From Thermoclostridium caenicola (GTDB lineage Bacteria > Bacillota > Clostridia > DSM-8532): 52,869 nucleotides of DNA. The position numbers and the translations under genes are program-made. This document shows positions 32,114 to 52,640 of this stretch, one piece after another; within the stretch, counting starts at the first letter, position 1, and every line of letters starts with the position of its first letter. The DNA lies in NCBI RefSeq assembly GCF_900142095.1, contig NZ_FQZP01000013.1, positions 1 through 52,869 of the forward strand, in the 5' to 3' direction. Under the pieces are notes generated by a model. The model was not told where the DNA came from, ran no database searches, and was given only the letters and a program-made list of their open reading frames with translations.

Positions 32114-32121
32114 GCAGCAAA

Positions 32122-32149
32122 AAAGCAGGGTGGCTGTAATCCCTGCTTT
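32122..32149. terminator. Bidirectional terminator between tail chaperone and PIN toxin
   Basis: AAAGCAGGG (32122-32130) and CCCTGCTTT (32141-32149) with a 10-nt loop. An outer pair AAGCAGC / GCTGCTT extends it, and T runs occur on both strands. It sits between convergent genes. Confidence 0.8.
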
Positions 32150-32161
32150 AAAAAGCTGCTT

Positions 32162-32566
32162 TTATTCCATTTGCAAAAACTCTGCCGCTGTTACGATCTT
32201 TGGGTTTGTTACGCCGGATTCAAGGAAATCCCTGTCTCCGGTTACAAGCACGTCAGCTTTTGCCGCAATGGCCGCCCTGAGTATTGGCCTGTCGGATGCG
32301 TCCCGGACAAGCGCCTCATCCGACACGTCAACTGCGGGAGTTGGAACAACTTCAAGAACGGTAAGCGCAATCGCCAAAAAGCGTTCAAGCGCCTGGATCT
32401 TATGGGGGAATTTCCGGTTGTATACCCGGCGAAGCTCATCGATGTTTTGATCGCAAACCATACCGTGGTTGGGGTGTGTTACAGCTTTAATGTACGCCTG
32501 ATAAGGCGTTCCTTCGCAGCTCAAGGAAGCGGAGATCAGGATGTTGGTGTCAATTAACACTCTCAT
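32162..32566 (-). CDS. PIN-domain toxin of a type II toxin-antitoxin pair
   Basis: 134 aa. MRVLIDTNILISASL supplies the first catalytic Asp (D6); IDELRRVYNRKFP, DASDRPILRAAIAAKADVL and VTGDRDFLE supply the other acidic residues of the PIN ribonuclease fold. It overlaps the antitoxin stop by 4 nt (ATGA), the usual antitoxin-first layout on the minus strand. Inserted against the direction of the tail operon, so it is cargo expressed in the lysogen. Substrate RNA unknown. Confidence 0.88.
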   Translation of the reverse strand: MRVLIDTNILISASLSCEGTPYQAYIKAVTHPNHGMVCDQNIDELRRVYNRKFPHKIQALERFLAIALTVLEVVPTPAVDVSDEALVRDASDRPILRAAIAAKADVLVTGDRDFLESGVTNPKIVTAAEFLQME

Positions 32567-32835
32567 AGACCTTCAATCTCCGCGCGGACGTCCTTCACCA
32601 GATCCATAACATCGTCATCATTGCGGATCCCGGCTTTTTCCGCTTCGCCCTCCATTTCTTTCTGTAGCATTTTCATGGCGTAGACAGCGGAGTTCATAAG
32701 AATAACCCGGTCTTCCTCGCAAATGAGGGTGACGCGGTCTCCGGTGGAAAGGCGAAGTTTGGAGCGGATATCTTTTGGCAGCGTGATCTGGCCTTTTGCC
32801 ATTACCTTTGCATTATCAACTATGGGAACGTTCAT
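32563..32835 (-). CDS. AbrB/MazE-type antitoxin
   Basis: 90 aa. The swapped-hairpin DNA-binding domain is clear: NAKVMAKGQITLPKDIRSKL, then RLSTGDRVTLICEEDRVILMN (about 7-48), followed by a helical acidic tail (MKMLQKEMEGEAEKAG, DLVKDVRAEIEGL) expected to clamp the PIN toxin. RBS AAGGAGG. A promoter with tandem AGTAGGGAA repeats lies upstream and probably mediates autorepression. The pair stabilises the prophage or acts in phage exclusion (inference). Confidence 0.88.
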   Translation of the reverse strand: MNVPIVDNAKVMAKGQITLPKDIRSKLRLSTGDRVTLICEEDRVILMNSAVYAMKMLQKEMEGEAEKAGIRNDDDVMDLVKDVRAEIEGL

Positions 32836-32872
32836 GCTAAGTCCTCCTTTTTAGGATTTGAAAAGCAGGAAA

Positions 32873-32922
32873 TTCCCTACTTTCCCTACTATTAGTATAT
32901 GCCAAACCGCATTGAAATACAA
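32873..32922 (-). promoter_or_regulatory. Promoter and operator repeats of the toxin-antitoxin operon
   Basis: Minus strand: TTGTAT (32922-32917), 17 nt, TATACT (32899-32894), then two tandem AGTAGGGAA copies (32890-32882 and 32881-32873) over the start region, a likely binding site for the AbrB-type antitoxin. Confidence 0.65.
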
Positions 32923-32968
32923 TAGCCTTTTATAATTTTTTAATTTTTACTCGAAAGGAGGCGGTTAT

Positions 32969-35257: not shown

Positions 35258-35270
35258 TGGAGGGAAGCAT

Positions 35271-36044
35271 ATGGGATTTATCTACAATGGAATATCGTCG
35301 CAAAGTATGAAAATACGAGCAAGACTTACCAAATGGCAGGTCTCCCCTGCCCTGCGCAATTCCTTTGAAACTGTGCCGGGCAAAGCAGGTATTGCAGATT
35401 TTGGCTGCGACATATCAGAACGAAACATAATAATTAGCTGTAGTGTGCTTCCCCAGCGCAGTTTTGCCGATCTTGTATCGGTTCTTGATAATGTTGCTGA
35501 ATGGTTAAATCCGGAAAACGGGCTTAAACAACTTGTTATAGATGATTTGCCCGACCGATATTTCATGGCTCGCTTATCAGAAGCGGTTGACTGTGAGCGA
35601 TTACTGCGGACAGCGGGCAGCTTTGAACTTCGGTTTGTTTGTCCCGACCCGTATGTTTACGCGTTGGAAGATGAGGTATTTGTTTTTTCTGAAACAGGTC
35701 TGCATGAGCTGGAGAGGGTTAAAGGAAATGCGGATTCCAATCCGGTTTATCTATTGAAGGGTTTGATATCAACGTCCTCATCAAGCTATATTTCGCTTAT
35801 TACGAACGGCGAGGAATTGAGAATTGTTGGTTCATTATCTGAAGGTGAAACTCTGATTGTCGACTCCGGCATGGTAACAGCTAAGGTTATTGATGAAACA
35901 GGCCGAACCTTGAGAAATGGTCTTCCCAGCCTGCAGGATCTGAATTTTCCAATTCTCAGGAAAGGTGTTAATCATATTGAGATTGCCGCAGAAAACGCGA
36001 CCTTTACTGAGTTAAAAATACAGGCAAAAAGCAGATGGAGGTGA
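35271..36044 (+). CDS. Distal tail protein (Dit)
   Basis: 257 aa. FIYNGISSQSMKIRARLTKW, ETVPGKAGIADFG, ISCSVLPQRSFADLVSVLD, GLKQLVIDDLPDRYFMARLS and FELRFVCPDPYVYA match the siphovirus Dit family. It forms the hub ring at the tail tip to which the endopeptidase at 36049 docks. The gene order tape measure-Dit-Tal is standard. A C-terminal domain (about 150-257) probably adds a small beta-sandwich. Confidence 0.88.
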   Translation: MGFIYNGISSQSMKIRARLTKWQVSPALRNSFETVPGKAGIADFGCDISERNIIISCSVLPQRSFADLVSVLDNVAEWLNPENGLKQLVIDDLPDRYFMARLSEAVDCERLLRTAGSFELRFVCPDPYVYALEDEVFVFSETGLHELERVKGNADSNPVYLLKGLISTSSSSYISLITNGEELRIVGSLSEGETLIVDSGMVTAKVIDETGRTLRNGLPSLQDLNFPILRKGVNHIEIAAENATFTELKIQAKSRWR

Positions 36045-36048
36045 TAAC

Positions 36049-38571: not shown

Positions 38572-38581
38572 GGGTGATGAT

Positions 38582-38776
38582 ATGGCATATTTCAATCAGA
38601 TTGCACACAGTATTTCTCCCAAAAGTATCAGCAGAGTCAAATCTATCACCATCAGGCTGTGCGTCACTGACTGCACCGGCACAGTGTACTTTACAGACTT
38701 ATTGCTTCAGGGCGGTTCGGTTTCCACTGGATGGATCGGGCATGTATGCGAAATCCGGTGGACATTGGACGGGTAA
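38582..38776 (+). CDS. Short tail protein, paralogue of 39785 N-terminus
   Basis: 64 aa, RBS GAGGGTGATGA. Its IRLCVTDCTGTVYFTDLLLQ matches TLKISDCNGIIYFTDLQLQ in the next phage gene at 39785, so the two share a roughly 50-residue domain. It ends naturally with EIRWTLDG. The erm gene lies between the two, in reverse orientation. Probably a small tail-tip or adsorption component; no named family. Confidence 0.7.
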   Translation: MAYFNQIAHSISPKSISRVKSITIRLCVTDCTGTVYFTDLLLQGGSVSTGWIGHVCEIRWTLDG

Positions 38777-38789
38777 TGAGCCGCTAAAA

Positions 38790-39578
38790 TTATTTTCTGC
38801 CTAACACATGCTCCCAGTAGCATCGGAAAAGGCAGAGCCACTGAACATAAAGAATCTCTGTAGGAGTAATATTTTTATTTTGCACACCAGCCTGACGGAA
38901 TGCCCTAGATAACTGCTTGCTTGTAAAAAGACTGCGGAATCCATATTTTAGTGCCTTTGAAACAAATTGTTCATAGGCAAACCACTGGTTTGCGGGTATG
39001 TCCGGTTGGCTCTTTTTCTTAAGGTGAAGAAGTACTGCATCAACGCTTGGTTTGGGATGGAAATCCTCCCTGCTGAAATAGTAAGCAATATCTAAATCGA
39101 ACTTGGGCTTTATAAGCAGAGAACGCAATGATTCTGAAGGCTCACCCATAAAACGTTTGGCTGCGCCTTTTTCCATGGTAAGCCATGCTTCAGAAGGTGC
39201 GTTTTTGCATTCCGTCAATTTTCGCATAATATCCGTAGTGAAGCAAAAAGGGATATTTGAAAAAACTTTATAATCTTCATAATTAGGAAGTTTCCATTTC
39301 AAAAAGTCCTGATGATATATACGGATATTTTTGACGTCCTTGAATTTTGCTGTCAATTTATTATATAAACGGCCGTCAATTTCAATTGCCGAAACTTTCC
39401 GGCATCTTTTTATCAAGAAACCTGTTATATGACCCTTTCCCGGACCAATTTCAATAACATGATCTTTTTTGTTAAGGGTTGTTCTGCGAATAATTCTGTT
39501 GATAATTTTGTAACTTGTTAAAAAGTTTTGAGATACCCAAATGGGCGGAGTTGTCCCTTTTTTTCTATTTTGGGGCAT
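38790..39578 (-). CDS. erm: Erm-type 23S rRNA adenine-N6-methyltransferase
   Basis: 262 aa, start ATG at 39578 with AAAGAGGTG upstream. Rossmann methyltransferase of the Erm/KsgA group: SQNFLTSYKIINRII (about 16-30), VIEIGPGKGHITGFL (AdoMet loop, 41-55), IYHQDFLKW, and catalytic SNIPFCFTTDI (107-117). The NIPF motif and SQNFL start indicate Erm rather than KsgA, which normally has NLPY. MEKGAAKRF and HPKPSVDAVLLHL are Erm-like. It should methylate A2058 of 23S rRNA and give macrolide-lincosamide-streptogramin B resistance. It is AT-rich and sits backwards between two paralogous tail genes with its own promoter, leader peptide and attenuator, i.e. a moron. The exact Erm class cannot be assigned by eye. 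Confidence 0.9.
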   Translation of the reverse strand: MPQNRKKGTTPPIWVSQNFLTSYKIINRIIRRTTLNKKDHVIEIGPGKGHITGFLIKRCRKVSAIEIDGRLYNKLTAKFKDVKNIRIYHQDFLKWKLPNYEDYKVFSNIPFCFTTDIMRKLTECKNAPSEAWLTMEKGAAKRFMGEPSESLRSLLIKPKFDLDIAYYFSREDFHPKPSVDAVLLHLKKKSQPDIPANQWFAYEQFVSKALKYGFRSLFTSKQLSRAFRQAGVQNKNITPTEILYVQWLCLFRCYWEHVLGRK

Positions 39579-39583
39579 AAAAA

Positions 39584-39704
39584 TACACCTCTTTCGTTTT
39601 TTCGTAATCGAAAAAGGTGCACAAAAACAAAGATGCTGCTATGAGCTATCTTTCTTTCTGTGCACTTTTATTTACGAATACGAAAAATACCATACATAGG
39701 TGTA
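39584..39704 (-). promoter_or_regulatory. Translational attenuator of erm
   Basis: The leader RNA can fold into one long rod. TACACCT (39704-39698) pairs with AGGTGTA (39590-39584), which includes the erm Shine-Dalgarno. TTTCGT pairs with ACGAAA, TTCGTAA with TTACGAA, AAAAGTGCACA with TGTGCACCTTTT (one bulge), and AAAGAT with ATCTTT near the tip. The SD is thus masked until ribosome stalling in the leader opens the 5' arm. Confidence 0.75.
39668..39697 (-). CDS. ermL: Erm leader peptide MYGIFRIRK
   Basis: A nine-codon frame on the minus strand, with GGAGG about 13 nt upstream, lying wholly inside the attenuator hairpin. The sequence carries R-I-R (and R-K), the basic-X-basic pattern known to cause macrolide-dependent ribosome stalling in Erm leaders. 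Stalling there would disrupt the TTCGTAA/TTACGAA and TTTCGT/ACGAAA arms and free the erm RBS. Too short for usual gene calling. Confidence 0.75.
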   Translation of the reverse strand: MYGIFRIRK

Positions 39705-39734
39705 TACTAGCCTCCAAATATAAAATCAAATTAT

Positions 39735-39763
39735 AGTTTAGCATTAATGCCTATGTTTGTCAA
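39735..39763 (-). promoter_or_regulatory. Promoter of erm leader
   Basis: Minus strand TTGACA (39763-39758), 17 nt, TAAACT (39740-39735); a TATAAT overlaps at 39735-39730 with a longer spacer. The perfect -35 lies between the erm leader and the RBS of the downstream tail gene. Confidence 0.7.
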
Positions 39764-39784
39764 ATGGTTTTGGAGGAAAAAACT

Positions 39785-40360
39785 ATGAAGTTTTCAAGGT
39801 TTGCAGAAACCATACAATTAAAAAACAATAATCATGTGGTGAGCGTAACTGTGACACTCAAGATTTCCGACTGTAACGGAATTATCTATTTCACCGACCT
39901 GCAGCTTCAGGATGGAGATCAGTTGACAGGCTATACCGTCCACACCAGCAAAATGCTAACGAAAATGCAGGAAAACGGGCAGCCAGTTCCGCCCCGGCAT
40001 TATAACGGTGTGGTGCGAACAGCGGAGACTGTAATTTTATTCAACCTGGGTAAAACTTCTGTTGGTCTTGACTGCTATATCTATCCTATACAGGATATGG
40101 CCGCAGGAAGTATTGAAATGTCCCAAGGTATGGGCGCGCATAAGGTAAAGTTTCTTGACCCGGTTAACGCAGGCGATGAGCTGGCGCTCAAGGCTTCCAC
40201 CCGCCAATGCATTAAAAACGGAAGTCCCACTCGTAAGGATGGGTTTTATCAATACTCTGCGGCATGGGATAGCAAACATATGGTGAAGCTGGAGGAGAGG
40301 AAATCGGCGCGAGTGCTCTTTGAGTTTCAGGAGATGCAGGAAGGCGGTGATCGGTTGTGA
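39785..40360 (+). CDS. Tail-tip structural protein, unknown
   Basis: 191 aa from the ATG at 39785 (MKFSRFAETIQ), preceded by TGGAGGAAAAAAC; the frame is open to 39764 but that start would cover the RBS. The first 50 residues are homologous to the 64-aa protein at 38582. The remainder (QNGQ-like linker, then GSIEMSQGMGAHKVKFLDPV, GDELALKAS, SARVLFEFQEMQ) looks beta-rich. It overlaps the hydrolase gene by 4 nt, so it is probably a tail-fibre or baseplate component. Confidence 0.72.
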   Translation: MKFSRFAETIQLKNNNHVVSVTVTLKISDCNGIIYFTDLQLQDGDQLTGYTVHTSKMLTKMQENGQPVPPRHYNGVVRTAETVILFNLGKTSVGLDCYIYPIQDMAAGSIEMSQGMGAHKVKFLDPVNAGDELALKASTRQCIKNGSPTRKDGFYQYSAAWDSKHMVKLEERKSARVLFEFQEMQEGGDRL

Positions 40361-42825
40361 GGGATTTCTTGAAAGGCAAGCGGTGCATGGTGTGGAGCTT
40401 TATGGGAAATACCCGGATGTATCAGGCACTTTCCAATTACGGCGACCGCTTTGATACGGTAGGCATTTTTACTTTTGAGGTTGACGCAACAGGCACAATT
40501 ACTGAAACCGGTACCAGCATCAGCAGCATGCTTCCGTATATTCAGAAATGGCCTCATATTAAGTGGCTGCTCACTATTATGAATCATGGAATAGCCAATA
40601 TTTTTACTGCACTTCGCAACAACGAAAACGGTGCAAAGGATAAGTTTCTTACTGAAATCATCCGAATCATGAACAAGTACCCATGGTGCGCTGGGGTAGA
40701 TATTGACCTGGAACGCGGCGGCGGTTATGAAAACAAGGATGCGGCGAATGCTTTATTTAGGGATATATACAATACAGTTAAGTCTTATGATGCAACAAAG
40801 CTTGTCAACATCTGCCTGCCTGGTATGACCGGCGTTCAAGGCTCGGTGGGCGGTGAAAACTGGTGTGTTTATGCCGATCTTAACGACTATTGCGATACCG
40901 CCGCCATCATGAGCTATGGCATGGCATGGGCGGGCTCTGCTCCCGGCCCAGTATCTCCTCGTGACTGGCTTGAGGGCATATATGATTATGCTGTTTCCGT
41001 TATGTCACCCGATAAGATATTCATGGGGTTGCCTGCTTATGGCTGGAACTGGAGGATTCATGATACACCTGAAAACCTTGGAATAACCTATCGAGGGGTG
41101 TCTAATACCTACTATGCGGCAAAATACTGGATGACTGGGGTTTACAATTTCACAGGCGATGCACCGCCCCAGCCGTTTATTCCAATTGTGGCTTACTGGG
41201 ATGACTATAACAAAGTACCTTGGGCTCTTCCTCATGTATATGACTATATGGAAGGATGGGATGCTGTATCTTGGGAATATCCGCTGCTAAAAGGGGTTTA
41301 TAACAGGCGAAGATATTTGACAAGCTATGGCAAGGAGCAGAAAGCGGAGTTCGGAACCATTTATATTGACAGGAACGGAGTTCCAGATGAATATGAAGGA
41401 AATGTCATTATTACTGATGAGATGGCCTCACTTGGAGATGACCAGGCGTCAGCAGAGTACCGTTTTGAGATAACAGAAGCGGGATATTACGATATTGCAG
41501 TACAGCTTTGCTTTCCTTACTGGGACAAAAATGCGATTATCGTTTCCCTTGATGGTGACTCAAAGACTTTCAGCGAGAACCGTTTATGGTGGCCATACTG
41601 GAGAAGAGTTTGCTGGTTGACACTTGCAAAAGGTGTATTTCTCCAAGAGGGAACGCATGCTGTCAGCATAAGCGGTGGTGTGCCGGGAGTACAGTTTTAC
41701 GGTTTTAGGGTTTGCAGTGGATTTTCGGAGTATCCCTTTGCCGGTGAAGCCAGCTTTATGCTCTCTCCTCGTCGGTTCAAGGATGTAAATGGTGTGATGG
41801 TTGAGCCGGATCGAGGTTTTAAACTGACCTTTGAAATGTTGCGAAGAAAACCCGACTCGGCGCTTATTTGGTATGAGGATTTTCGGGACAGGAACATCCT
41901 GCCCGAAAACTATTGGACTGTGCTGGACGGCGAATGGGATGTTTGGCAAGACCCAGACAGCACAGAAAGTCGCCCATATTCCCAGCTCGAGGGATATGGC
42001 AAACTTGCATGGAAATACGACGGGTTTTCCGATATCCATATCCGGGCAAGGCTGGCTTTCCCTCAAAATAGCAGTGGACGGGCTGGGGTGTTCCTTGGGG
42101 ATATTTTCTGCTGCTTAAATTATGACACGCAAAGAGTCGAGCTTTATCAAGGTAATTCCTTGCTTGGTAGCTATTCCACCAGTTTCTCAAAAACTGCAGA
42201 TGCCGATCTTCGTGCTAATCCGAATATGTATACTATAGAGATGCGAAAACGCGGCAATAAGGTAAGAGTATATTCAGGTGCAGCTTCACCCCTGCGTTTC
42301 ACAGTGAATGTAAACGGTGGTAGTGGTTATGCAGGGTACTGCTCGGACAACCGGACGGTATGCGAGCTACTGAGACTGGGCGATGCATGGGTATATGAAC
42401 CATACGAGCGTTTTGATGTGGAACTTCCGGATGGAAATATAACCAGCTTTGGCAGGCTTGCTCGCACTGGTGTCACGTGGGATGATGAATTTCAGGTGTT
42501 TTCAGTAAATAGCGATGTGGAGGAATCGGCAACTCGCAATGAGGACATTTCGATGGACTATGATTTTTTCCACTCGCAGCTTTTGACGCTTTCCTGCGGT
42601 AATGACTATGAAGTAAAGATTATACCGAAAGACATCAATATCTGGATATCCCGTCTCTTCCTCGGAGATGCAGATGGTTTTTCTATTCTGTATTATCAGG
42701 ATGTGGACAGCCTTGTTTACTGGGCAAACGAAGCGGCTTATCGATGGAAACTGCGAGGTATAGCTATCTGGTCGCTTGGACAGGAGGATATGAGGCTGTG
42801 GGAGGCACTCCCGAAACAAATATAG
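40357..42825 (+). CDS. Tail-associated GH18-family glycoside hydrolase
   Basis: 822 aa. The N-terminal TIM-barrel half contains the GH18 signature WCAGVDIDLERGGG (D114, D116, catalytic E118), then KLVNICLPGMTG, AAIMSYGMAWAG and DKIFMGLPAYGWNWR. The last strand of the barrel appears at the very C-terminus (WKLRGIAIWSLGQEDMRLWE, about 798-817), so about 400 residues of beta-rich domains (about 340-740) seem inserted in the barrel. GH18 enzymes cut chitin or peptidoglycan-type beta-1,4 links; here wall or surface-glycan degradation during adsorption is likely. Confidence 0.85.
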   Translation: MRDFLKGKRCMVWSFMGNTRMYQALSNYGDRFDTVGIFTFEVDATGTITETGTSISSMLPYIQKWPHIKWLLTIMNHGIANIFTALRNNENGAKDKFLTEIIRIMNKYPWCAGVDIDLERGGGYENKDAANALFRDIYNTVKSYDATKLVNICLPGMTGVQGSVGGENWCVYADLNDYCDTAAIMSYGMAWAGSAPGPVSPRDWLEGIYDYAVSVMSPDKIFMGLPAYGWNWRIHDTPENLGITYRGVSNTYYAAKYWMTGVYNFTGDAPPQPFIPIVAYWDDYNKVPWALPHVYDYMEGWDAVSWEYPLLKGVYNRRRYLTSYGKEQKAEFGTIYIDRNGVPDEYEGNVIITDEMASLGDDQASAEYRFEITEAGYYDIAVQLCFPYWDKNAIIVSLDGDSKTFSENRLWWPYWRRVCWLTLAKGVFLQEGTHAVSISGGVPGVQFYGFRVCSGFSEYPFAGEASFMLSPRRFKDVNGVMVEPDRGFKLTFEMLRRKPDSALIWYEDFRDRNILPENYWTVLDGEWDVWQDPDSTESRPYSQLEGYGKLAWKYDGFSDIHIRARLAFPQNSSGRAGVFLGDIFCCLNYDTQRVELYQGNSLLGSYSTSFSKTADADLRANPNMYTIEMRKRGNKVRVYSGAASPLRFTVNVNGGSGYAGYCSDNRTVCELLRLGDAWVYEPYERFDVELPDGNITSFGRLARTGVTWDDEFQVFSVNSDVEESATRNEDISMDYDFFHSQLLTLSCGNDYEVKIIPKDINIWISRLFLGDADGFSILYYQDVDSLVYWANEAAYRWKLRGIAIWSLGQEDMRLWEALPKQI

Positions 42826-42845
42826 GTTAATAGTTTTATTTATTC

Positions 42846-42876
42846 AGCGCTTTGCTATAAGGCAGGGCGCTTTTTT
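42846..42876 (+). terminator. Terminator between tail and lysis genes
   Basis: AGCGC (42846-42850) pairs with GCGCT (42867-42871), extended by TTTGC/GGCAGG with two G-U pairs, followed by a T run. Confidence 0.65.
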
Positions 42877-42912
42877 ATATGCAAAACTCAAGTTGAACGG
42901 AGGGTTAAGACA

Positions 42913-43332
42913 ATGAAAACAGTATGGAACTGGATACAGGCGGTTTTTACTGCTATTGGCGGATTTCTTGGCTGGTTTCTTGGAGGGCTGGATGGATTTT
43001 TGTATGCACTCATCGCTTTTGTAGCCATTGACTATGTGACCGGAGTGATGTGTGCCGTTGTAGACAGAAAGCTTTCGAGTGAAGTCGGGGCCAAGGGCAT
43101 CTTTAAGAAAGTGCTTATTTTTGTACTTGTAGGTGTGGGACACATAATCGACAGCCAGGTGCTCGGCAATGGCGGGGCAATTCGGACAGCAGTGATTTTC
43201 TTTTACCTAAGTAATGAAGGAGTTTCAATTCTTGAGAATGCAGCACATATAGGACTGCCCATTCCTGAAAAGCTGAAGAACGCATTGGAACAACTGCATG
43301 GCCGCTCAAATGAGGAGGATGAAAAGAAATGA
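42913..43332 (+). CDS. Phage holin (TcdE/phi-LC3-type, holin family 4)
   Basis: 139 aa, RBS ACGGAGGG. Three hydrophobic segments: about 8-26 (VFTAIGGFLGWFLGGLDG), about 28-48 (YALIAFVAIDYVTGVMCAVV) and about 64-95 (VLIFVLVGVGHIIDSQVLG, AVIFFYLSNEG), ending in a charged tail (SNEEDEKK). IDYVTGV followed by a GAKGIFKK loop is the signature of toxin-secretion/phage-lysis holins. It forms membrane holes that release the amidase, whose gene overlaps by 4 nt. Confidence 0.93.
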   Translation: MKTVWNWIQAVFTAIGGFLGWFLGGLDGFLYALIAFVAIDYVTGVMCAVVDRKLSSEVGAKGIFKKVLIFVLVGVGHIIDSQVLGNGGAIRTAVIFFYLSNEGVSILENAAHIGLPIPEKLKNALEQLHGRSNEEDEKK

Positions 43333-44333
43333 AGCTTTTTACTAAATACATGACGCGAAACGATTGCTATACAGCAGGCCGCAAAATCACGCCTAAAGGA
43401 ATCATGGTACATTCGACAGCTGTGCCGGGTGTAATGGCGGCTGAGTGGTTTTCCCGTTGGAACAAATCTTACAAGGCCGGCGAAATAAACAGGCAGGTAT
43501 GTGTTCACGCTTTTGTAGACGATAAAGAGGTTTGGCAATACCTGCCTTGGGATCATCGCGGGTGGCATGCGGGAGGAGCAGCCAACAATACCCATATTGG
43601 CTTTGAAATCTGTGAGCCTGCTGGGTTTTCGTATAAATCCGGGTCGGTAATGGTGGGTTATGATGCAGCAAAGCAGGAAGATTATTTCCGTAAAGCGTGG
43701 CAGAATGCTGTTGAACTCTGCGTTATGCTCTGCAAGAAGTACGGTCTTAATGAGAATGACATCATCTGCCACTCCGAAGGATATAAGCTCGGTATTGCCA
43801 GCAACCATGCTGATGTGATGCACTGGTTTCCCAAGCATGGGGAGAATATGGACACTTTCCGTAAAGCAGTAAAAAAAGCGCTGGAGAACAGTACAGATAT
43901 CAATACTGATATTGGAATTGGAGATATGGTGGAGTTTAAGGTCAGTGTAAAGAATTACTACCCCGGCAGTGTGGAAGTTCCAACGTGGGTCAAAAATGAC
44001 TATTACCACAGGGTCACACAGACTTTATACAAAGGCAAGCCGGTCATAAAAGGCGGCAAAGAATGTGTATTGCTTGGCAAAAAGGTTAAGAAATCCGGCG
44101 GTCAAGAGATTGCAGGCATAAACACTTGGGTAGCAAAAGAAAACCTTGTAATTGTAAACAGCATTCCTGATAACAAGTGCAATAGAACCTATACAGTGCA
44201 AAAAGGCGACACCTTATGGAGAATAGCGGAAAAAGAACTCGGTAGAGGAACAAGATATCCGGAGATCAAGAAACTGAATAGCCTGACTACGGATACTATT
44301 TACCCCGGACAAGTTCTGAAATTGCCTAAATAA
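43329..44333 (+). CDS. Endolysin: N-acetylmuramoyl-L-alanine amidase with LysM
   Basis: 334 aa. The amidase_2 domain (about 1-165) shows MVHSTAVPG (zinc His), HAFVDDKEVWQYLPWDHRG, HIGFEICEP and CHSEGYKLGIASNHADV. The middle (about 190-275) is an SH3-like region (GDMVEFKVSVKNYYPGS, CVLLGKKVKK). The C-terminal LysM (about 285-334) reads TYTVQKGDTLWRIAEKEL, then IYPGQVLKLPK. It cleaves the peptide stem from muramic acid at lysis. A terminator follows. Confidence 0.95.
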   Translation: MKLFTKYMTRNDCYTAGRKITPKGIMVHSTAVPGVMAAEWFSRWNKSYKAGEINRQVCVHAFVDDKEVWQYLPWDHRGWHAGGAANNTHIGFEICEPAGFSYKSGSVMVGYDAAKQEDYFRKAWQNAVELCVMLCKKYGLNENDIICHSEGYKLGIASNHADVMHWFPKHGENMDTFRKAVKKALENSTDINTDIGIGDMVEFKVSVKNYYPGSVEVPTWVKNDYYHRVTQTLYKGKPVIKGGKECVLLGKKVKKSGGQEIAGINTWVAKENLVIVNSIPDNKCNRTYTVQKGDTLWRIAEKELGRGTRYPEIKKLNSLTTDTIYPGQVLKLPK

Positions 44334-44605: not shown

Positions 44606-44666
44606 TTAGCTTGCTATTAGCGGCACACAGAGGTAACATGTCACATGCCCAAAGGAGGTGAAAACA

Positions 44667-46235
44667 GTGAGAAAGGTAACAAGGATTGATGGAAACAATG
44701 CTCTCCAAGCTTTCAAGCCAAAGGTGAGGGTAGCGGCTTATTGCAGGGTTTCAACAGACAGTGATGAGCAAATGGCAAGCCTGGAAGCACAAAAGGACCA
44801 TTATGAATCCTATATAAAAGCAAATCCTGATTGGGAATTTGCAGGGATTTATTATGATGAAGGCATATCAGGCACAAAAAAGGAAAACCGAACTGGACTT
44901 TTGAGACTGCTTGCAGATTGCGAAAACAAAAAAATTGACTTTATTATAACCAAGTCGGTCAGCAGATTTGCCAGAAACACAACCGACTGTATTGAGATGG
45001 TGAGAAAACTTACCGATCTCGGTGTTTTCATCTATTTCGAGAAAGAGAATATAAACACACAGCGCATGGAAGGCGAATTGGTGCTGACAATTTTGAGCAG
45101 TCTTGCAGAAAACGAGTCATTATCCATTGCAGAAAATAGTAAGTGGTCTATCAGACGTAGGTTCCAAAACGGAACATACAAAATTTCGTATCCTCCCTAT
45201 GGTTACGATTATGTGGATGGAAAGCTATTTATCAATAAAGAACAGGCTGAAATCATAAAGCGGATTTTTTCCGAGGCTTTGGACGGTAAAGGCACACAGA
45301 TAATTGCAGATGGGCTAAATTCGGATAAAATCCCAACAAAGAGAGGTTCACACTGGACAGCGACAACTATCCGCGGCATTTTAAGCAATGAAAAATATAC
45401 TGGGGATGTCCTTCTGCAAAAAACCTATACAGATGAGAATTTTAAGCGGCATTATAATCATGGGGAAAAAGATCAATACATGATAAAAGATCATCATGAA
45501 GCCATTATATCCCATGAGGAATTTGAAGCCGTCAAAGAAATATTGAAGCAAAGAGGTAAAGAAAAAGGCGTAATCAAGGGAAGCAGTAAATATCAAAACC
45601 GCTACCCTTTCTCGGGGAAAATCAAATGCGCAGAATGTGGCAGCAGTTTTAAGCGTCGAATTCATGGCAGTGGTAATCATAAATACATTGCCTGGTGCTG
45701 CACAAAGCATATAAAAGACGCTTCGGCTTGTTCAATGAAATTTGTCAGAGAGGATGGGATCCATCAGGCCTTTGTTGTTATGATGAATAAGCTTATTTTC
45801 GGACATAAGTTCATTCTAAGGCCATTGCTACAAAGTTTAAAGGAAACAAATTACTCAGAAAATATAGCGAAGATTCAAGAGCTGGAAATAAAAATCAAAG
45901 AAAATACAGAACGGGTTCAGGTAATCATGGGACTTATGGCTAAGGGATACCTGGAACCCGCTCTTTTTAATACACAGAAAAATGAGCTGCTTAAAGAAGC
46001 GGCCTTATTAAAGGAACAAAAAGAAGCCATAAAACATACAATCGATGGGAGTCAGACTATCCTCTTTGAGGTTGAAAAGCTTTTTAAATTTGCAACGAAG
46101 GCTGAAAAGCAGATTGATGCATTTGATAGCGATATATTTGAGAACTTTATTGAAGAAATCATTGTGTTTTCACAGGAGGAAATAGGTTTCAAAATGAAAT
46201 GCGGGTTGAACTTAAGGGAAAGGTTGATGAAATGA
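44667..46235 (+). CDS. Large serine recombinase 1
   Basis: 522 aa from the GTG at 44667 (AAAGGAGG upstream; the GTG at 44658 overlaps the RBS). The resolvase catalytic domain has [15 protein letters not shown] (nucleophile S29), DEGISGT, and IITKSVSRFARNT (about 95-107). The recombinase domain spans about 165-270 (PPYGYDYVDGKLFINKEQAE). The zinc ribbon about 320-350 (KIKCAECGSSFKRR, WCCTKH) is followed by a C-terminal coiled coil (EIKIKENTERVQVIMGLMAK). Catalyses site-specific integration or excision. First gene of a three-gene recombinase operon. Confidence 0.95.
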   Translation: MRKVTRIDGNNALQAFKPKVRVAAYCRVSTDSDEQMASLEAQKDHYESYIKANPDWEFAGIYYDEGISGTKKENRTGLLRLLADCENKKIDFIITKSVSRFARNTTDCIEMVRKLTDLGVFIYFEKENINTQRMEGELVLTILSSLAENESLSIAENSKWSIRRRFQNGTYKISYPPYGYDYVDGKLFINKEQAEIIKRIFSEALDGKGTQIIADGLNSDKIPTKRGSHWTATTIRGILSNEKYTGDVLLQKTYTDENFKRHYNHGEKDQYMIKDHHEAIISHEEFEAVKEILKQRGKEKGVIKGSSKYQNRYPFSGKIKCAECGSSFKRRIHGSGNHKYIAWCCTKHIKDASACSMKFVREDGIHQAFVVMMNKLIFGHKFILRPLLQSLKETNYSENIAKIQELEIKIKENTERVQVIMGLMAKGYLEPALFNTQKNELLKEAALLKEQKEAIKHTIDGSQTILFEVEKLFKFATKAEKQIDAFDSDIFENFIEEIIVFSQEEIGFKMKCGLNLRERLMK

Positions 46236-46690
46236 TGAGCCATATACCTTTTGGATATACCATTCAAAACGGCAAGGCTGTTGTTAACGAAAAGGAAGCG
46301 GTTAAGATAAAGGAGCTGTTTGGGGCTTATCTTTCCGGGCTTTCTTTAACTGAAGCGGCCAAAAACGCGGGTATTAAGCGCTGCCATACATCTATTGCAA
46401 GAATGCTGACAGATAAACGGTATGTTGAGGATAAATTTTATCCGCCAATTATCAGCAGGGACACATTCGAAAAAGCACAACTTGAAAGACGCAGACGAGC
46501 TGAGGCGCTTGGCAGGATTTATGAACATAAAGGAAATGAAAAGAAATGCCTGAATTTTAGGTTTCATGCTTCAATGCCAGATAATCTATACGATGATCCA
46601 TTTCAGCAGGCAGAGTATGCTTATAGTCTTATCAAGAGCGAGGTGATTTTAGATGACAACCAGGAATGTTACGATAATTCCTGCTCGTAA
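46232..46690 (+). CDS. Recombinase-domain protein lacking catalytic domain
   Basis: 152 aa from the ATG at 46232, overlapping the recombinase 1 stop by 4 nt. It contains only the recombinase (DNA-binding) domain: [39 protein letters not shown] and [20 protein letters not shown], equivalent to the middle of large serine recombinases. No resolvase domain with YCRVSTDS and no zinc ribbon are present. Not an obvious decay product, since it has its own start and is translationally coupled on both sides. It could be a directionality or accessory DNA-binding factor (inference). Confidence 0.85.
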
Positions 46691-48221
46691 GCGAATTGGG
46701 AATAGTGCAAAGGCCGAGGAATTGCCTAAGCTTCGGGTGGCAGCCTATTGCCGTGTTTCTACGGACAGCGAAGAGCAGGCAACCAGTTATGAAGCGCAAA
46801 TTGAGCACTACACAAACTACATTAAAAGCAATCCCGAATGGGAGTTAGCAGGCATATTTGCGGATGAAGGGATTACTGGAACCAACACGAAAAAGCGTGA
46901 AGAGTTTAACCGGATGATAGAAGAATGTATGCAGGGCAAAATCGATATGATAATTACGAAATCTATCAGCCGTTTTGCAAGAAATACGCTGGACTGCCTA
47001 AAGTACATAAGGCAGCTTAAAGAAAAAAATATTCCAGTTTACTTTGAAAAGGAAAATATAAACACATTGGATTCCAAAGGAGAAATCCTGTTGACCATTA
47101 TGGCATCTTTGGCACAGCAAGAAAGCCAATCGTTAAGCCAGAATGTAAAACTGGGTATTCAGTACCGATATCAGCAAGGAAAAATCCATATCAATCACAA
47201 CCGGTTTCTTGGCTATACAAAGGATAAGGATGGCAATTTAGTTATCGTACCTGAAGAAGCTGAGATCGTCAAACGCATTTACAGAGAATATCTTGAAGGT
47301 TCCAGTATGCTACAGATAGCAAGAGGTCTGGAAGCTGACGGAATTCTGACAGGTGCAGGCAATCACAGATGGCATACCAGCACCATCAATAAGATTTTGA
47401 GGAATGAAAAATATATCGGTGATGCGCTGTTGCAGAAAACCTATACAGTAGATTTTTTATCGAAGAAAAGGGTGGCCAATAACGGCATAGTTCCTCAATA
47501 CTATGTAGAAAACAGCCATGAGCCCATAATCCCGCGTGAAATTTATATGCAGGTTCAGGAAGAGCTTGTCCGCAGAAGATGTGTGCATATAAGTAAGAAC
47601 GGAAAGAAGAGAAACTACAGCAATAATCATCCCTTATCCCAAATGGTGTTCTGCGGCAAGTGTCATGAAGTATTCCGCAGGGTTCATTGGAATAACCGAG
47701 GAAAGAAATCAATCGTATGGAGATGCGTCAGCAGATTGGAAAACACCGGTTTGTTTTGTACCGCTTCCACTATACTTGAAGATACTCTCAAAGAGAAGAT
47801 TGTAGAAGCTATCAATATAGCCGTCAGCGGGAAAAACTCTTTCCTGGCTATACTGAAAAAGAATATTGAAACCGTATTAAGCGAGGATTTGGATGAGAGT
47901 ACAGCAGATATTGATAAAAGGCTGGAAGAACTCCAAACCGAGTTGATCCAAAAGGCAAATTCAAAGGAAGCATACGATAATATTGTCAACGAGATTTACC
48001 ACTTACGGGACTTAAGGCAAGAAACACTTTCAAGAAACGCTCTTCGCCAAGATAAGAGGGATCGGATTGCTGAAATGTCGGACTTCCTTAACACGCAAAC
48101 CGGTGATATTACGGAGTTTGATGATAAACTGGTCAGAAAACTGGTTGAAAAAGCAACGGTATATGATGACAGGATATTGGTTGAATTTAAGTCTGGGTTA
48201 GAAATAGAAGTGAATCTATAG
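46653..48221 (+). CDS. Large serine recombinase 2
   Basis: 522 aa, overlapping the previous gene by 38 nt. Catalytic domain: [16 protein letters not shown] (nucleophile S36), [20 protein letters not shown] (about 110-122). Recombinase domain about 185-290 ([36 protein letters not shown]). Zinc ribbon about 330-365 ([21 protein letters not shown]) and coiled coil ([20 protein letters not shown]). Clearly homologous to recombinase 1 but diverged, so the pair may act together, as paired recombinases do in some cassette elements, or be used for opposite reactions. Confidence 0.95.
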
Positions 48222-48236
48222 GATTAAAATAAGATT

Positions 48237-48281
48237 GCCGCCAGTTGAGGAGGAAACCTTCTTAATTGGCGGCGTTTTTAT
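48237..48281 (+). terminator. Terminator after recombinase operon
   Basis: GCCGCCAGTT (48237-48246) pairs with AATTGGCGGC (48264-48273; one G-U), followed by GTTTTTATTTTT. It probably lies close to the right prophage end. Confidence 0.85.
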
Positions 48282-48308
48282 TTTTATACAAATGTATAAA
48301 CAAATATA

Positions 48309-48337
48309 TAGACAAATAAATATTTTTCATGTATAAT
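48309..48337 (+). promoter_or_regulatory. Sigma-A-type promoter of the Phd/HARE operon
   Basis: TAGACA (48309-48314), 17 nt, TATAAT (48332-48337), 20 bp before the start codon at 48357 with GAGGTGGTG between. Confidence 0.65.
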
Positions 48338-48356: not shown

Positions 48357-48758
48357 ATGGATATTAGAATAGATAGCTTAATTCCCTTTGATTCATTGAA
48401 AACCAATATAGACCATGTATTCTCTGTTGTTGATAAAAACGGAAAAGTTGTTCTGCTTAAAGATAATAAGCCGGTTTATATAGTCTTAAAATACGATGAA
48501 AATAATTTAGCTGATACAGGAATTGGCATGCAAGAAATGCCTAATTTTACGCTTCATGAAGCTATGAAAATTGTCTTATCAGAGGCAGAAAACAAAACGA
48601 TGCATGCTGCTGAACTTGCCGATGAGATATATAGGCGTAGGCTGTATTTAAAAAAGGATGGCAGTAAGGCGGAATATACACAGATAAGGGCAAGGTGCGG
48701 GCATTACCCTGATATGTTTGAAGCATTGCCGGGAAACCGTATCAAATTAAAAGATTAA
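48357..48758 (+). CDS. Phd/YefM-like plus HARE-HTH fusion protein
   Basis: 133 aa. The N-terminal half (about 1-60: LIPFDSLKTNIDHVFSVVDK, then GKVVLLKDNKPVYIVLKYD) has the pattern of Phd/YefM antitoxin DNA-binding domains. The C-terminal half (about 64-132: TLHEAMKIVLSEAENKTMHA, AELADEIYRRRLYLKKDGS, YTQIRARCGHYPDMFEALPG) matches the HARE-type winged helix found in regulators linked to modified DNA. No toxin gene follows; instead a DNA glycosylase gene does, 44 nt downstream. Likely an autoregulating DNA-binding protein. Host or prophage membership is uncertain because the exact right boundary is unknown. Confidence 0.7.
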   Translation: MDIRIDSLIPFDSLKTNIDHVFSVVDKNGKVVLLKDNKPVYIVLKYDENNLADTGIGMQEMPNFTLHEAMKIVLSEAENKTMHAAELADEIYRRRLYLKKDGSKAEYTQIRARCGHYPDMFEALPGNRIKLKD

Positions 48759-48802
48759 AGTATAGCGCTAAGCATGAGGAGAAGCTATGGAAAGGTGATA
48801 AT

Positions 48803-49537
48803 ATGGCGGAACATTTGCTTGTAACAATAGGAAAAGCACGATTTAGTGATTCACAAAGACATCTTATTCCTTTTGTTAATGACATAGAACAAGATAAATT
48901 TCTTAACGATATTGAAAACACGCCCCATGCTTTTGTTTTAGCCTGCTTGATGGATAGGCAGATTAAAGCGGAGCGAGCGTGGTCAATTCCCTTTAGAATA
49001 AGGGAGATTATAGGAAGCTTTAAAATTGATGATTTAGCCAGCGTTTCACTTGAAGAGTACAAGAATATTTTTAATAGAAATGTCTTGCATAGATTTAACG
49101 ATACAATGGCAGAAGTGTTTTATTCTGCAGTTCAGGATATTAAAGTAAAGTATAATGGGGATGCTTCGCGAATATGGAGCAACAACCCTAGTAGCGCAAA
49201 AGTGGTTTATGAATTCTTGCAGTTTAAAGGAAGCGGCAAAAAAATTGCCACAATGGCGGCTAATATTCTTGCCAGACAATTTAAGATCCCGTTTTCTGAT
49301 TATTACTCAATTGACATATCACCAGATGTGCATATTCTAAGAGTAATGCGACGGACAGGTTTGGTTGACAATAACGCTGATTTAGATTCAATTATCTATA
49401 AGGCAAGAGAGTTAAATCCTGAGTTTCCTGGGATTATAGATTTTTCATGCTGGGAGATCGGGCGAACCTGGTGCAGGCCGAGTAATCCTAATTGCAACGA
49501 ATGTATTATTAATTCTGAATGCAAGAAGAGGGTTTAA
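48803..49537 (+). CDS. Endonuclease III-like HhH DNA glycosylase with [4Fe-4S] cluster
   Basis: 244 aa. The helix-hairpin-helix EFLQFKGSGKKIATMAANIL (about 140-159) includes a Lys at the EndoIII catalytic position; SIDISPDVHILRVMRRTGL (about 173-191) holds the HhH-GPD Asp region. C-terminal Cys at 224, 231, 234 and 240 have the exact C-x6-C-x2-C-x5-C spacing of the EndoIII iron-sulfur cluster. The N-terminal 100 residues are unlike standard Nth. Damaged or modified bases are the expected substrate. Pairing with the HARE-HTH gene suggests processing of modified, possibly phage, DNA (inference). Confidence 0.85.
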   Translation: MAEHLLVTIGKARFSDSQRHLIPFVNDIEQDKFLNDIENTPHAFVLACLMDRQIKAERAWSIPFRIREIIGSFKIDDLASVSLEEYKNIFNRNVLHRFNDTMAEVFYSAVQDIKVKYNGDASRIWSNNPSSAKVVYEFLQFKGSGKKIATMAANILARQFKIPFSDYYSIDISPDVHILRVMRRTGLVDNNADLDSIIYKARELNPEFPGIIDFSCWEIGRTWCRPSNPNCNECIINSECKKRV

Positions 49538-49593: not shown

Positions 49594-50139
49594 TTGAAAC
49601 GTATAAGTGTTCTACTTGTAATAGGACTGGTAATTATAATCCTTGCTGGCTGTGGAGGGGTAGAAACACGAGAAAAAATATTACCGGATGGTAGGAAACT
49701 TATAATTGATGCTGCTGGAAAAATCATATCTGATAGTAATCCTGAACCACTTGAAGGGTATACCTATGACGAACAGACAGGACGGTATGTTAATGAAACT
49801 ACCGGCATTTGGTATATCGTTGAAAATGGGCAAAAGGTAATACCGCCCGAAGAATACTTTGATCCTGATGAAGTAGGCATACCCAGCGGTATAAATATTT
49901 CAAACCGTCCCGACGATGTATGGGAACTTAAAGAGGTACGTGAGGTAACCATTCAATCAGGAGATACGCTGGTTGATATTATCAACCCGTACTTTATGAA
50001 TGAACATTACAGAATGAATTATGAATGGTATGCTAAACAGGTTCTGGAACTTAACAACATTACCGAACCTAACTTTATAAAAGCGGGAGAAACTTTAAAG
50101 ATACCGATTTATATTGACAAAGGTGCAAAAGTGAACTAG
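49594..50139 (+). CDS. Lipoprotein with LysM-like domain
   Basis: 181 aa from a TTG with GGAGGTGATATAG upstream. Signal peptide with lipobox LAGC (Cys about 20): MKRISVLLVIGLVIIILAGC. The mature part has a YTYDEQTGRYVNETTGIWYI segment, and a C-terminal LysM-like stretch (about 118-178: EVTIQSGDTLVDIINPYFM, then KQVLELNNITEPNFI, GETLKIPIY). Expected to be tethered to the outer face of the membrane and to contact peptidoglycan. Not obviously phage-related. Confidence 0.82.
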   Translation: MKRISVLLVIGLVIIILAGCGGVETREKILPDGRKLIIDAAGKIISDSNPEPLEGYTYDEQTGRYVNETTGIWYIVENGQKVIPPEEYFDPDEVGIPSGINISNRPDDVWELKEVREVTIQSGDTLVDIINPYFMNEHYRMNYEWYAKQVLELNNITEPNFIKAGETLKIPIYIDKGAKVN

Positions 50140-50251: not shown

Positions 50252-50725
50252 TTGGCTCAAATACAATCATTGATGCGGGCTGTAATAAACTTTTATAATT
50301 TTAACAACAGAAATGCTCCCGTAGTAATCACAAGAGTAAAAGAACACGACAGTGAAAGAATGTGCATGGACAGACTAGAAAGAGCAATTTTTGACTCATG
50401 TGATGAAGACTGCAAGGCAACTCCATCAAGATATGCAATATGGGGAGAAGACATCCGTAGCCTTAGTATTTCTGCAAAAGAAGCAATGAAAAACGGGAAC
50501 ATCGAACAAGCAGAAAAATCAATGAATCAAGTTATTAATAGTATGGGCGCATTTATAGACGCTCAATTGATACTCAGCAATTTGCCTGGAAACATCAGCT
50601 TTGTAAAATCAAAAGATATTATTAAATCCTATATAACCAGCTTACTAGAAAACAACGAAGCATCAGATCCTGAAACGGATTATTTAATTGACAGTATGAA
50701 AGAGATAATGAACAGCATTGAATAA
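50252..50725 (+). CDS. Hypothetical helical protein
   Basis: 157 aa, TTG start with AAAGGGATG upstream. No signal peptide or membrane segment. Residues about 35-50 contain a small Cys set (CMDRLERAIFDSCDEDC). The C-terminal two thirds are helical (ISAKEAMKNGNIEQAEKSMN, IDAQLILSNLPG, DIIKSYITSLLENNE). No family recognised. It lies between a lipoprotein gene and a membrane protein gene in the host flank. Confidence 0.7.
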   Translation: MAQIQSLMRAVINFYNFNNRNAPVVITRVKEHDSERMCMDRLERAIFDSCDEDCKATPSRYAIWGEDIRSLSISAKEAMKNGNIEQAEKSMNQVINSMGAFIDAQLILSNLPGNISFVKSKDIIKSYITSLLENNEASDPETDYLIDSMKEIMNSIE

Positions 50726-50819
50726 AGGGATTGATTAATAAAAGAGTCATTTATCATGCAACTAGAATCCGAAATCTAATTCCCTATCAAATAGAGGAAA
50801 TATGACAAGGAGGGTTAAA

Positions 50820-52181
50820 ATGTCAACTGAATTGACACAGGAAAAATTGAAGAAAATAGCAGTTGCTCACAGAATAAATCCTTACGCGGATATTATTCCA
50901 TACGAGCTTGGGTTTGGTTTTCCGCAAATATACTATTCTGGTTTTTTCACTCAACCAGATGAATTCATTATATATGCAGCACCAGCATACACGTTTAAAG
51001 ATAAAACACAGATAACCGGTTATACAGGCAGAACCGCCGGTGTAAGTGTGCGTGTTGCAAAAGGAGTTTCCCTTCGAACTGGTGGCTATGGAGGAAAGCC
51101 AATAAGAGGAACTGTTAGGGACTGCAATTATGGTGATATCATTATTACTAATAAGCGTGTTGTTTTTATCGGAAAAGATGATAATTTTGATTTTGCCGTA
51201 GAGAAAATAACTGCAGTAAAAATACTCGATGCTTTTAGTTTCGTAATTAAAGCTGGCCGTTCATCTAAAAACATTGGTACAGATGCGGCTATTTTAAATT
51301 ACATAACAGGATTTATTAACTACAGTATACAAGCTTATAATGAAGGACGTAATTTGTTTGAAAAACGCGCAGAACTAGAAAGGGGTATTAGTCAAGAAGA
51401 AATTGAACTTTGTAATCAAGTACGTAATATGATAAATAAAATAAAGATCAGAAAATTAAATAAAAATGGCTGCCTCTGGACTGTCGCTAAAATTCTCGGT
51501 GTTACAGTAGTTTTGGCAATAATTTCGCTTATTGTTATTTTGATTGCTGTTCCCAAAAATGAGAATGTAAAAGAGAATGAACCTACTGTCACTGATAAAA
51601 GTATTATTGAATTACTTACTCTACCTAATCATCCTTTAATTTATGATAATTATACCGATGCTGTTAATTTCTATAAAAATATTGGGGATTCCCGAATTGA
51701 GGTTACAACAATAAGTGAACATGCACAAAAGCAAAGAAACCTCAAATCAATACATGATGATAAAACAATACTGTATCTAATCCAGCACTCAACAAATAAA
51801 GACTATATTGGCACGATTCAAATCAATTTGTATGATTCTACCGGGAAAGATATGACTTTAGAAGGTGCTGTTGAGTTGATCACAAGTTATCTCCCCGATT
51901 ACTTTGGAAAGTACTATCGCATGACGGATTGTTACAAATATGAGAACGATGGTACTGTTATTTATGTTTATGCTGCAAGGCTTAATGATGCTGGAATTGT
52001 CTTTCAAAATGAGTCTGCACCATATCTTTCTCCTTATTATTACATAAAGTTAATTAAATATGCTGACGGAGAACATTGGAAACTAGAAACGGGGTATTCA
52101 GCTAATGGTGGTAAAGATAAAGGGTGGATTGAAAAATATGCAGAGCCTTGGGAATTTAACTTTGCTGATTATTTATCATAA
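50820..52181 (+). CDS. Membrane protein with PH/GRAM-like cytoplasmic domain
   Basis: 453 aa from the ATG at 50820 (AAGGAGGG upstream; an ATG at 50802 lacks an RBS). The N-terminal cytoplasmic part has a PH/GRAM-like segment: YGDIIITNKRVVFIGKDDNF, then FAVEKITAVKILDAFSFVIK (about 100-145). A single transmembrane helix lies at about 222-246 (VAKILGVTVVLAIISLIVIL). The external domain (about 250-453) is Tyr-rich and may bind a ligand (SYLPDYFGKYYRMTD, IYVYAARLNDAGIVF). Function unknown; an envelope sensing role is possible. Confidence 0.75.
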   Translation: MSTELTQEKLKKIAVAHRINPYADIIPYELGFGFPQIYYSGFFTQPDEFIIYAAPAYTFKDKTQITGYTGRTAGVSVRVAKGVSLRTGGYGGKPIRGTVRDCNYGDIIITNKRVVFIGKDDNFDFAVEKITAVKILDAFSFVIKAGRSSKNIGTDAAILNYITGFINYSIQAYNEGRNLFEKRAELERGISQEEIELCNQVRNMINKIKIRKLNKNGCLWTVAKILGVTVVLAIISLIVILIAVPKNENVKENEPTVTDKSIIELLTLPNHPLIYDNYTDAVNFYKNIGDSRIEVTTISEHAQKQRNLKSIHDDKTILYLIQHSTNKDYIGTIQINLYDSTGKDMTLEGAVELITSYLPDYFGKYYRMTDCYKYENDGTVIYVYAARLNDAGIVFQNESAPYLSPYYYIKLIKYADGEHWKLETGYSANGGKDKGWIEKYAEPWEFNFADYLS

Positions 52182-52284: not shown

Positions 52285-52640
52285 TTACTGCTGTGTAAGT
52301 ACAATTAATAAGATTGAATGGTATAGCCATGATATACAGATTGATTTGTTTCCTTGAACGTCGGTTTTCAGAAAAAAAGACCGAAAAACCCATTGACATG
52401 TTCCCGTAAACGTAAGGTTCAAAAAATAAGCCCAAGACATCAATCCGAGCGGCTCAAGCCATGTGGAGTGCGTGATATTGATGTCAAAGGTTGAGAAATA
52501 AAAAACTGAAAAGCTTGTAAATAAAGGGTTTCCAGACATTTAGCTTTTCTCGAGTCCGATCTGCCGGATGTGGCAATGTCAGGAAACCATTATTTTTGTT
52601 GTTTGCGGGAACATATCAACCGTCGCGAAAATTAATAGTT
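52285..52640 (-). pseudogene. IS110-family transposase remnant, second copy
   Basis: The minus strand carries GNPLFTSFSVFYFSTFDINI, then THSTWLEPLGLMSWAYFLN, fitting the N-terminal RuvC-like region of IS110 transposases around the EPTGHYW-type motif. VDMFPQTTKIMV lies upstream in the same frame, interrupted by stop codons. Downstream the frame is lost. Around 52461-52486 it is almost identical to about 92-117 at the left end, and weaker similarity extends upstream in both. Decayed and inactive. Confidence 0.5.

Follow-up and report, generated by a model that had tools for sequence, protein, structure and literature searches.

An endonuclease III-like iron-sulfur glycosylase in a variable cargo slot of clostridial prophages: a candidate anti-phage enzyme

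The stretch of DNA analysed here, called the window, comprises 52,869 nucleotides of Thermoclostridium caenicola (contig NZ_FQZP01000013.1 of assembly GCF_900142095.1) and carries a prophage whose replication, head, tail and lysis genes lie on the forward strand within the approximate limits 4596..44333. Matches to PHROGs in this body include DNA polymerase, primase, terminase, portal, major head protein, tape measure, endolysin and DNA methyltransferase. It is followed on the same strand by serine recombinase 1 of 525 aa (44658..46235; Pfam Resolvase, Recombinase and Zn_ribbon_recom), a small recombinase-domain protein of 163 aa (46199..46690; Pfam Recombinase, E=6.5e-6), and serine recombinase 2 of 522 aa (46653..48221; assigned by Pfam), the fixed left neighbour of a cargo slot. 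An intrinsic terminator at 48236..48274 (+), composed of an 18-pair stem and then TTTTTATTTT, closes the recombinase operon; the region 48225-48290 has a fold energy of -36.1 kcal/mol (z -9.9), and comparable hairpins are found in relatives. The slot thus described spans from the last serine recombinase and the terminator (48221/48274) to a distal repeat at about 52335. The two open reading frames named in a preliminary description of this DNA are present at 48357-48758 (133 aa) and 48803-49537 (244 aa), on the forward strand and 44 bp apart. They had been placed next to a prophage end; they are located towards the integrase end, but inside the cargo zone of the prophage and not merely adjacent to it.

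The entrance of the slot has three direct ACAAAT repeats with a period of 12 (48288..48317, +), recognised by pattern match and conservation and probably serving as an operator. The triple repeat has one exact match in the window and none in 100 shuffles. Among related loci (numbered with L; genomes with G), it occupies the equivalent position in L009, L014, L107, L109-112, L135/136 and others, has one base changed in L108, L119, L149 and L151, and is kept even in L135/L136, whose first slot protein, Phd/HARE, is only 56% identical. A longer version of the repeat gave six matches in viral contigs, all six at Phd/HARE loci. A sigma-70-like promoter, TAGACA-17-TATAAT (48309..48337, +), agrees with the consensus at 11 of 12 bases and has its -35 box inside the third ACAAAT repeat. 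Promoter, operator and terminator are all conserved.

The gene behind this promoter (48357..48758, +) encodes a Phd/HARE-HTH protein of 133 aa, assigned by weak Pfam matches, fold and conservation. The proposed fusion of a Phd-like N-terminus to a HARE-HTH domain is borne out to the extent that both domains are weakly matched and two DNA-binding folds are modelled, but the Pfam scores are below their cut-offs and the fold scores are weak: PF02604 matches the N-terminus with E=0.013 (cut-off not reached), and HARE-HTH PF05066 matches the C-terminus with E=1.7e-4 and 22.4 bits (gathering cut-off 25.9). The AlphaFold2 model (pLDDT 77, pTM 0.51) has two small DNA-binding folds, of which the N-terminal part weakly resembles the DNA-binding domain of phage P1 Phd (2.5 A over 38 columns, E=0.3) and the C-terminal part weakly resembles forkhead/winged-helix domains, all fold matches having E>0.01. 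A constant toxin gene beside Phd/HARE was sought across the loci and not found; the next gene varies by locus.

A profile search found Phd/HARE in 12 of 398 genomes of the phylum and 10 of 391 of the class; about 15 viral contigs also have it. Most prophage copies directly follow the last serine recombinase, and a few chromosomal copies without recombinases are known from L121, L123, L124 and L152-L154. It stands beside the glycosylase gene only in near-identical copies (>=94%) and one frameshifted copy in G518. Judged by this distribution, the Phd/HARE gene belongs to the prophage and not to the glycosylase. In L125, with a layout common to L107, NUDIX and SRA-HNH genes are located between the operator and Phd/HARE, so the promoter appears to serve the cargo. 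This entrance layout is usual for an autorepressed operon, and Phd/HARE presumably binds the ACAAAT repeats; the protein is likely to be an autoregulator of the cargo operon. HARE-HTH domains have been proposed as sensors of DNA base modification (discussed in PMC11037411).

The second gene (48803-49537, +) encodes an iron-sulfur DNA glycosylase of the HhH-GPD type with 244 aa, identified by its ORF, Pfam, TIGR03252, alignment, fold and selection. Pfam HhH-GPD matches it with E=0.0033 and 18.2 bits, below the gathering score of 26.2. Among named families, TIGR03252 comes closest (E=1.3e-17, residues 26-161), with 64 bits where the cut-off is 136.5. A full-length alignment of 59 sequences has invariant residues in the first half at V45, C48, P63, H96, W125, F138, F141, G143 and G145, and in the second half at K147, L156, D175, R184, P209, G210, G220, C224 and C231. 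K147 (codon 49241-49243, +) is within the HhH motif GSGKK, and this residue and D175 (codon 49325-49327, +), both assigned from alignment and fold, are at the positions of the catalytic Lys and Asp of Nth. The four-cysteine cluster claimed in the preliminary description is intact as C224-x6-C231-x2-C234-x5-C240 (codons within 49472-49522, +; from the alignment), which is the iron-sulfur pattern of Nth/MutY and is kept across the 59-member family, with C234 and C240 nearly invariant (>90% of the 59).

The AlphaFold2 model of the glycosylase (pLDDT 95.9, pTM 0.90) matches endonuclease III over residues 1-244 with Z 16.2 and an rmsd of 3.1 over 201 residues, followed by human NTHL1, ROS1 and MutY. 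With the EndoIII fold, the HhH GxGxK motif and the catalytic Asp all present, the modelled protein is a member of the HhH-GPD superfamily. The first 100 residues had been called non-standard; because the model aligns with endonuclease III over its whole length, the N-terminus is no separate domain but only diverged sequence. A further structural match is the queuosine glycosylase DUF2419 with Z 13.7, and MutY and OGG have similar scores; this match was considered as a clue to a deazaguanine substrate and dropped as too unspecific.

The glycosylase shares with Nth and MutY the full-length fold (Z 16.2 for Nth, about 13 for MutY), the HhH motif, the Asp and the cysteine spacing, and with Nth the Lys, but it differs from them in being only 12-20% identical, far below family cut-offs. 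It has a signature of its own, consisting of PHAFVLACxMDRQIKAERAW, LHRF and GDASxIW, with a conserved SDYYSIDIS before the Asp. The N-terminal half (LHRF..., GDA..IW) is common to TIGR03252, described as a putative HhH-GPD-type base excision DNA repair protein, whereas the TIGR03252 sisters compared are 186-215 aa long and have neither the region of the catalytic Asp nor an FeS cluster. The TIGR01083 equivalog model for endonuclease III gives 18.3 bits, missing the cut-off of 211.7, and the host genome has a separate MutY gene and two tandem Nth-like genes. By these comparisons the glycosylase is distinct from housekeeping Nth and does not cluster with it; such clustering would have refuted the reading in the preliminary description. 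PADLOC has no model matching it. Between near-identical copies the glycosylase dN/dS is 0.04-0.20, and the coding sequences of both the glycosylase and Phd/HARE are, on sequence comparison, under strong purifying selection.

A scan of GTDB genomes found at least 77 loci with relatives of the glycosylase, ranging from Bacillota to Planctomycetota, Gemmatimonadota and archaea, a lower bound given that only two peptide patterns were used. Three viral contigs also encode relatives. In its own class the glycosylase occurs in three of 391 sampled genomes, two of them with 94-95% identical copies in other families. The window protein clusters in the tree with Clostridium and Fermentithermobacillaceae sequences, and phyla are intermingled elsewhere. 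Near-identical copies in distant families and the mixing of phyla in the tree point to horizontal transfer and indicate a sporadic, horizontally moving family. Broken copies also occur: those of L035 and L122 are frameshifted or truncated, that of L061 is truncated, and that of L020 has a premature stop. Searches by tblastn gave no match in annotated phages and only distant TIGR03252-like proteins in plasmids. A Rhizobium plasmid (L167:1782-3070) carries a distant relative of 186 aa in a short operon, where its gene overlaps that of a dTMP kinase.

Three further genes lie behind the glycosylase on the forward strand. The first encodes a LysM lipoprotein of 181 aa (49594..50139; Pfam LysM 1.7e-6, OCRE-like 4.2e-6), which accompanies the glycosylase also in L012, L013 and L061. 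The second encodes a cargo protein of 157 aa with no assigned function (50252..50725) on a module, 50215-50796, that moves as a unit; its gene is behind the lipoprotein gene in the window, L013 and L061, and between Phd/HARE and the glycosylase in L009 and L015. Position 50796, at which four loci lose homology, was considered as the right end of the prophage and ruled out, being a module boundary inside the cargo zone. The third is an ORF for a membrane protein of 459 aa (50802..52181), probably cargo as it is between the two borders of the slot; searches with Pfam, TIGR-type and PADLOC models found no significant family for it. The zone is closed by the conserved distal repeat (52335..52545), with copies of 71-86% identity behind other cargo in 13 loci (L009, L012-L015, L118, L119, L125, L129, L131, L149, L150 and L151). 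Because the repeat lies behind varying cargo, the zone has a fixed entrance and a fixed exit. It is an interspersed repeat, with another copy (73%) elsewhere in the host genome. Window positions 94-354 and 52335-52545 belong to one interspersed repeat family, and the window ends are alike over about 80 bp (73%).

The cargo of the slot varies widely. The glycosylase occupies it in the window, L009 and L012-L015, and as a frameshifted copy in L122, accompanied in L012 by a GIY-YIG protein and in L015 by a DUF4062/PDC-S60 protein. Other occupants include two GmrSD_N proteins forming a type IV restriction pair, GmrSD (L118, L119); GmrSD N+C with ADP-ribosylglycohydrolase (L127-L129), in L129 as GmrSD_N+C with DUF4268; an SRA-HNH type IV enzyme with NUDIX (L013, L125, L118); PsyrTA (L120; PsyrT 4e-274, PsyrA 6e-98); Banzai BnzB-like proteins (L131, L150; BnzB 1.3e-66 in L150); a Mokosh MkoA-like protein (L151, 1.6e-110); HEC-05 (L135, L136; 1.8e-232 in L135); a DpdF-like helicase (L126, L149); and Schlafen AlbA_2 (L133 and relatives). 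The CBASS genes of L118 are located beyond the distal repeat and are not counted as cargo. A neighbourhood survey of the kind suggested in the preliminary description thus found the HARE gene repeatedly beside restriction and defence cargo, but the glycosylase is not its constant partner.

Comparisons between loci indicate how the cargo is exchanged. In L118 and L119, 3937 bp of GmrSD cargo are 99.95% identical, whereas the Phd/HARE genes are 81% identical; likewise, L126 and L149 have 1977 bp of DpdF-like cargo in common at 99.7% identity, with recombinases only 69-72% identical. Conversely, the recombinase of the window is 94.6% identical to that of L119 with different cargo, and the DNA of serine recombinase 2 is 93.7-95.5% identical in L012, L015, L119 and L149, all with different cargo. 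As read from these alignments, cassettes move between prophages, and the cargo in relatives consists mostly of recognisable defence genes. With fixed flanks, variable cargo, known defence families and cassette exchange all found, the slot is very probably a prophage defence hotspot. It also takes genes not known as defence: in L009:3891-9465 (G111), the stretch from the glycosylase to the distal repeat includes two BlaI/M56 sensor pairs; the left part of the G111 prophage is interrupted by an IS21-type insertion. In L013:9992-15613, two copies of the distal repeat flank an arsenic resistance operon directly behind the defence cargo, like an added second cassette. Multi-gene cargo in L151:6790-12328 and L131:10408-14774 includes several proteins that match no known family, among them those of 653 and 550 aa in L151 and of 342 and 335 aa in L150/L131, and may hold parts of unnamed defence systems. 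More slots were sought in the order of G472, where no new ones were found.

Relatives outside the slot occur in several defence operons. The glycosylase gene follows the type I gene hsdR at a distance of 5 bp in L039 and type III Res at 29 bp in L021, is part of a type III Mod-AAA-Res-glycosylase-PDDEXK row in L053, overlaps druE (DruE3) of Druantia in L025, and adjoins a PLD-SNF2 helicase in L019. A fragment follows hsdR in L087, with HsdR assigned by similarity to L039, and in L036:8228-12238 a relative is flanked by two ADP-ribosylglycohydrolase genes. These contexts are individual loci, listed as cases.

Because the slot in relatives holds known anti-virus systems and has a built-in switch gene, the glycosylase is a good candidate for a novel type of bacterial defence against competing viruses. 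Its most plausible role, favoured here with some reserve, is that of anti-phage base-excision cargo in a prophage defence slot under Phd/HARE control. Phd/HARE, which is predicted to have two DNA-binding domains and lacks a toxin partner, would bind the ACAAAT repeats and repress its own promoter and thereby the cargo. Once repression is relieved, the glycosylase would flip out and excise a base by which foreign DNA can be told apart, most likely a modified one in the DNA of an infecting phage; the neighbour genes of relatives suggest hydroxymethyl- or glycosyl-pyrimidine and 7-deazaguanine as candidate substrates. The Lys would attack C1', and the enzyme would then nick the strand as a bifunctional enzyme of the Nth type. 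The incoming phage genome would accumulate abasic sites and breaks, and the prophage would in this way shield its host from competitor phages. The earlier idea of a defence against modified DNA is upheld as far as context goes, with GmrSD, SRA-HNH and other systems in the same slot and relatives in or beside restriction and Druantia operons. Against it, the LysM lipoprotein and the 157-aa and 459-aa proteins beside the glycosylase are no recognised defence genes.

Many relatives of the glycosylase are solitary among housekeeping genes, with gltX, aconitase B and acetate kinase as neighbours, and for this reason an accessory repair enzyme also fits. Such an enzyme would remove oxidised or deaminated bases as a general fitness gene, and its place in a defence slot would be incidental. 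The EndoIII-like fold and the intact Lys, Asp and FeS cluster agree with this role, and the NUDIX protein of L013 resembles the MutT and pyrimidine dNTP diphosphatase models about equally, both below cut-offs. However, the host already has its two Nth-like proteins and MutY, the presence of the glycosylase is very sporadic, its slot partners are mostly defence genes, and its placement with restriction systems in other phyla is operon-like; general repair is an unlikely explanation.

On the phage contig L090 (6714-10771), a relative lies divergently beside ParB-like, DpdA-like, QueC and queuosine-precursor transporter genes, and the phage contig L035 is similar, with the ParB-like, DpdA-like and QueC genes; the transporter is found in L090 only. 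From its gene content, this neighbourhood is a 7-deazaguanine modification cluster. The cluster, together with the unspecific DUF2419 match, would agree with a function for the phage itself, namely base editing of phage or host DNA, for instance within a modification pathway or by stripping a mark read by host defences. Nevertheless, the genes examined in the window prophage show only ParB-linked methyltransferases and no such cluster, and stand-alone defence systems replace the glycosylase in the slot. The L035 copy is frameshifted, and therefore that phage can do without it. A phage-own function is accordingly improbable.

A dedicated pair of Phd/HARE and glycosylase, the unit first proposed, with HARE recognising the modification and directing or controlling the enzyme, is very improbable, because Phd/HARE occurs with at least ten other types of cargo; the two genes stand side by side on one strand in the window, L013 and L014, where they are presumably transcribed together, but another gene lies between them in L009 and L015, and most glycosylase relatives are without Phd/HARE.

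The favoured anti-phage reading has precedents in other enzyme families. Brig1 and Brig3 are published anti-phage DNA glycosylases of the UDG superfamily (PMC11078745, PMC13160076), and restriction glycosylases belong to the R.PabI family (PMC10273834); base excision as a form of immunity is known so far from these two kinds of enzyme. The window glycosylase is similar to Brig1 and Brig3 in being located on mobile or defence DNA, and an FeS cluster is also found in the closest structural homologue of Brig1. ADP-ribosylglycohydrolases, recurrent neighbours of Brig1 and of the Brig3 operon, flank the relative in L036 and occur in the slot (L129). Unlike those UDG-superfamily enzymes, the window protein is an HhH-GPD protein with a modelled EndoIII fold and a catalytic Lys; its best structural matches are of the EndoIII/MutY type, and a UDG-superfamily fold was not found. 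No HhH-GPD defence glycosylase was found in the literature searched.

P2/P4-type prophages have defence hotspots in which exchangeable cassettes occupy a fixed place. The slot described here differs from them: it lies behind clostridial serine recombinases, its entrance carries a dedicated terminator, operator, promoter and regulator gene, and a repeat marks its exit. To our knowledge, there is no description of a Phd/HARE prophage slot. Two linked novelties are thus suggested by the sequence, a branch of HhH-GPD glycosylases and a regulated prophage slot. The broader proposal, that HhH-GPD FeS glycosylase/lyases excising modified phage bases form a second, independent branch of base-excision immunity within a self-regulated, exchangeable slot switched by Phd/HARE, is put forward tentatively, with the chances slightly against it. 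If true, such a branch of EndoIII-type lyases would kill through strand nicks in addition to abasic sites, would be spread over many phyla, and would offer a means to read modified bases. The slot is useful whatever the glycosylase does, as its operator signature points to defence cassettes of clostridial prophages, including unnamed ones.

The prophage body of the window also carries several other genes of note. An Erm-family 23S rRNA methyltransferase gene (38790-39578, -; NF000499 243.9 bits, cut-off 212) lies on the opposite strand in the tail region, and a PIN toxin and AbrB-type antitoxin pair (32162-32835, -) lies between tail genes. An ECF sigma factor gene with a neighbour of 431 aa is present inside the prophage at 16263-18054 (-). 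On the forward strand, two adjacent ParB-domain proteins are encoded at 18718-21353, the first matching ParB-linked DNA methyltransferases and the second starting alike; from this pair, the prophage may methylate its own DNA.
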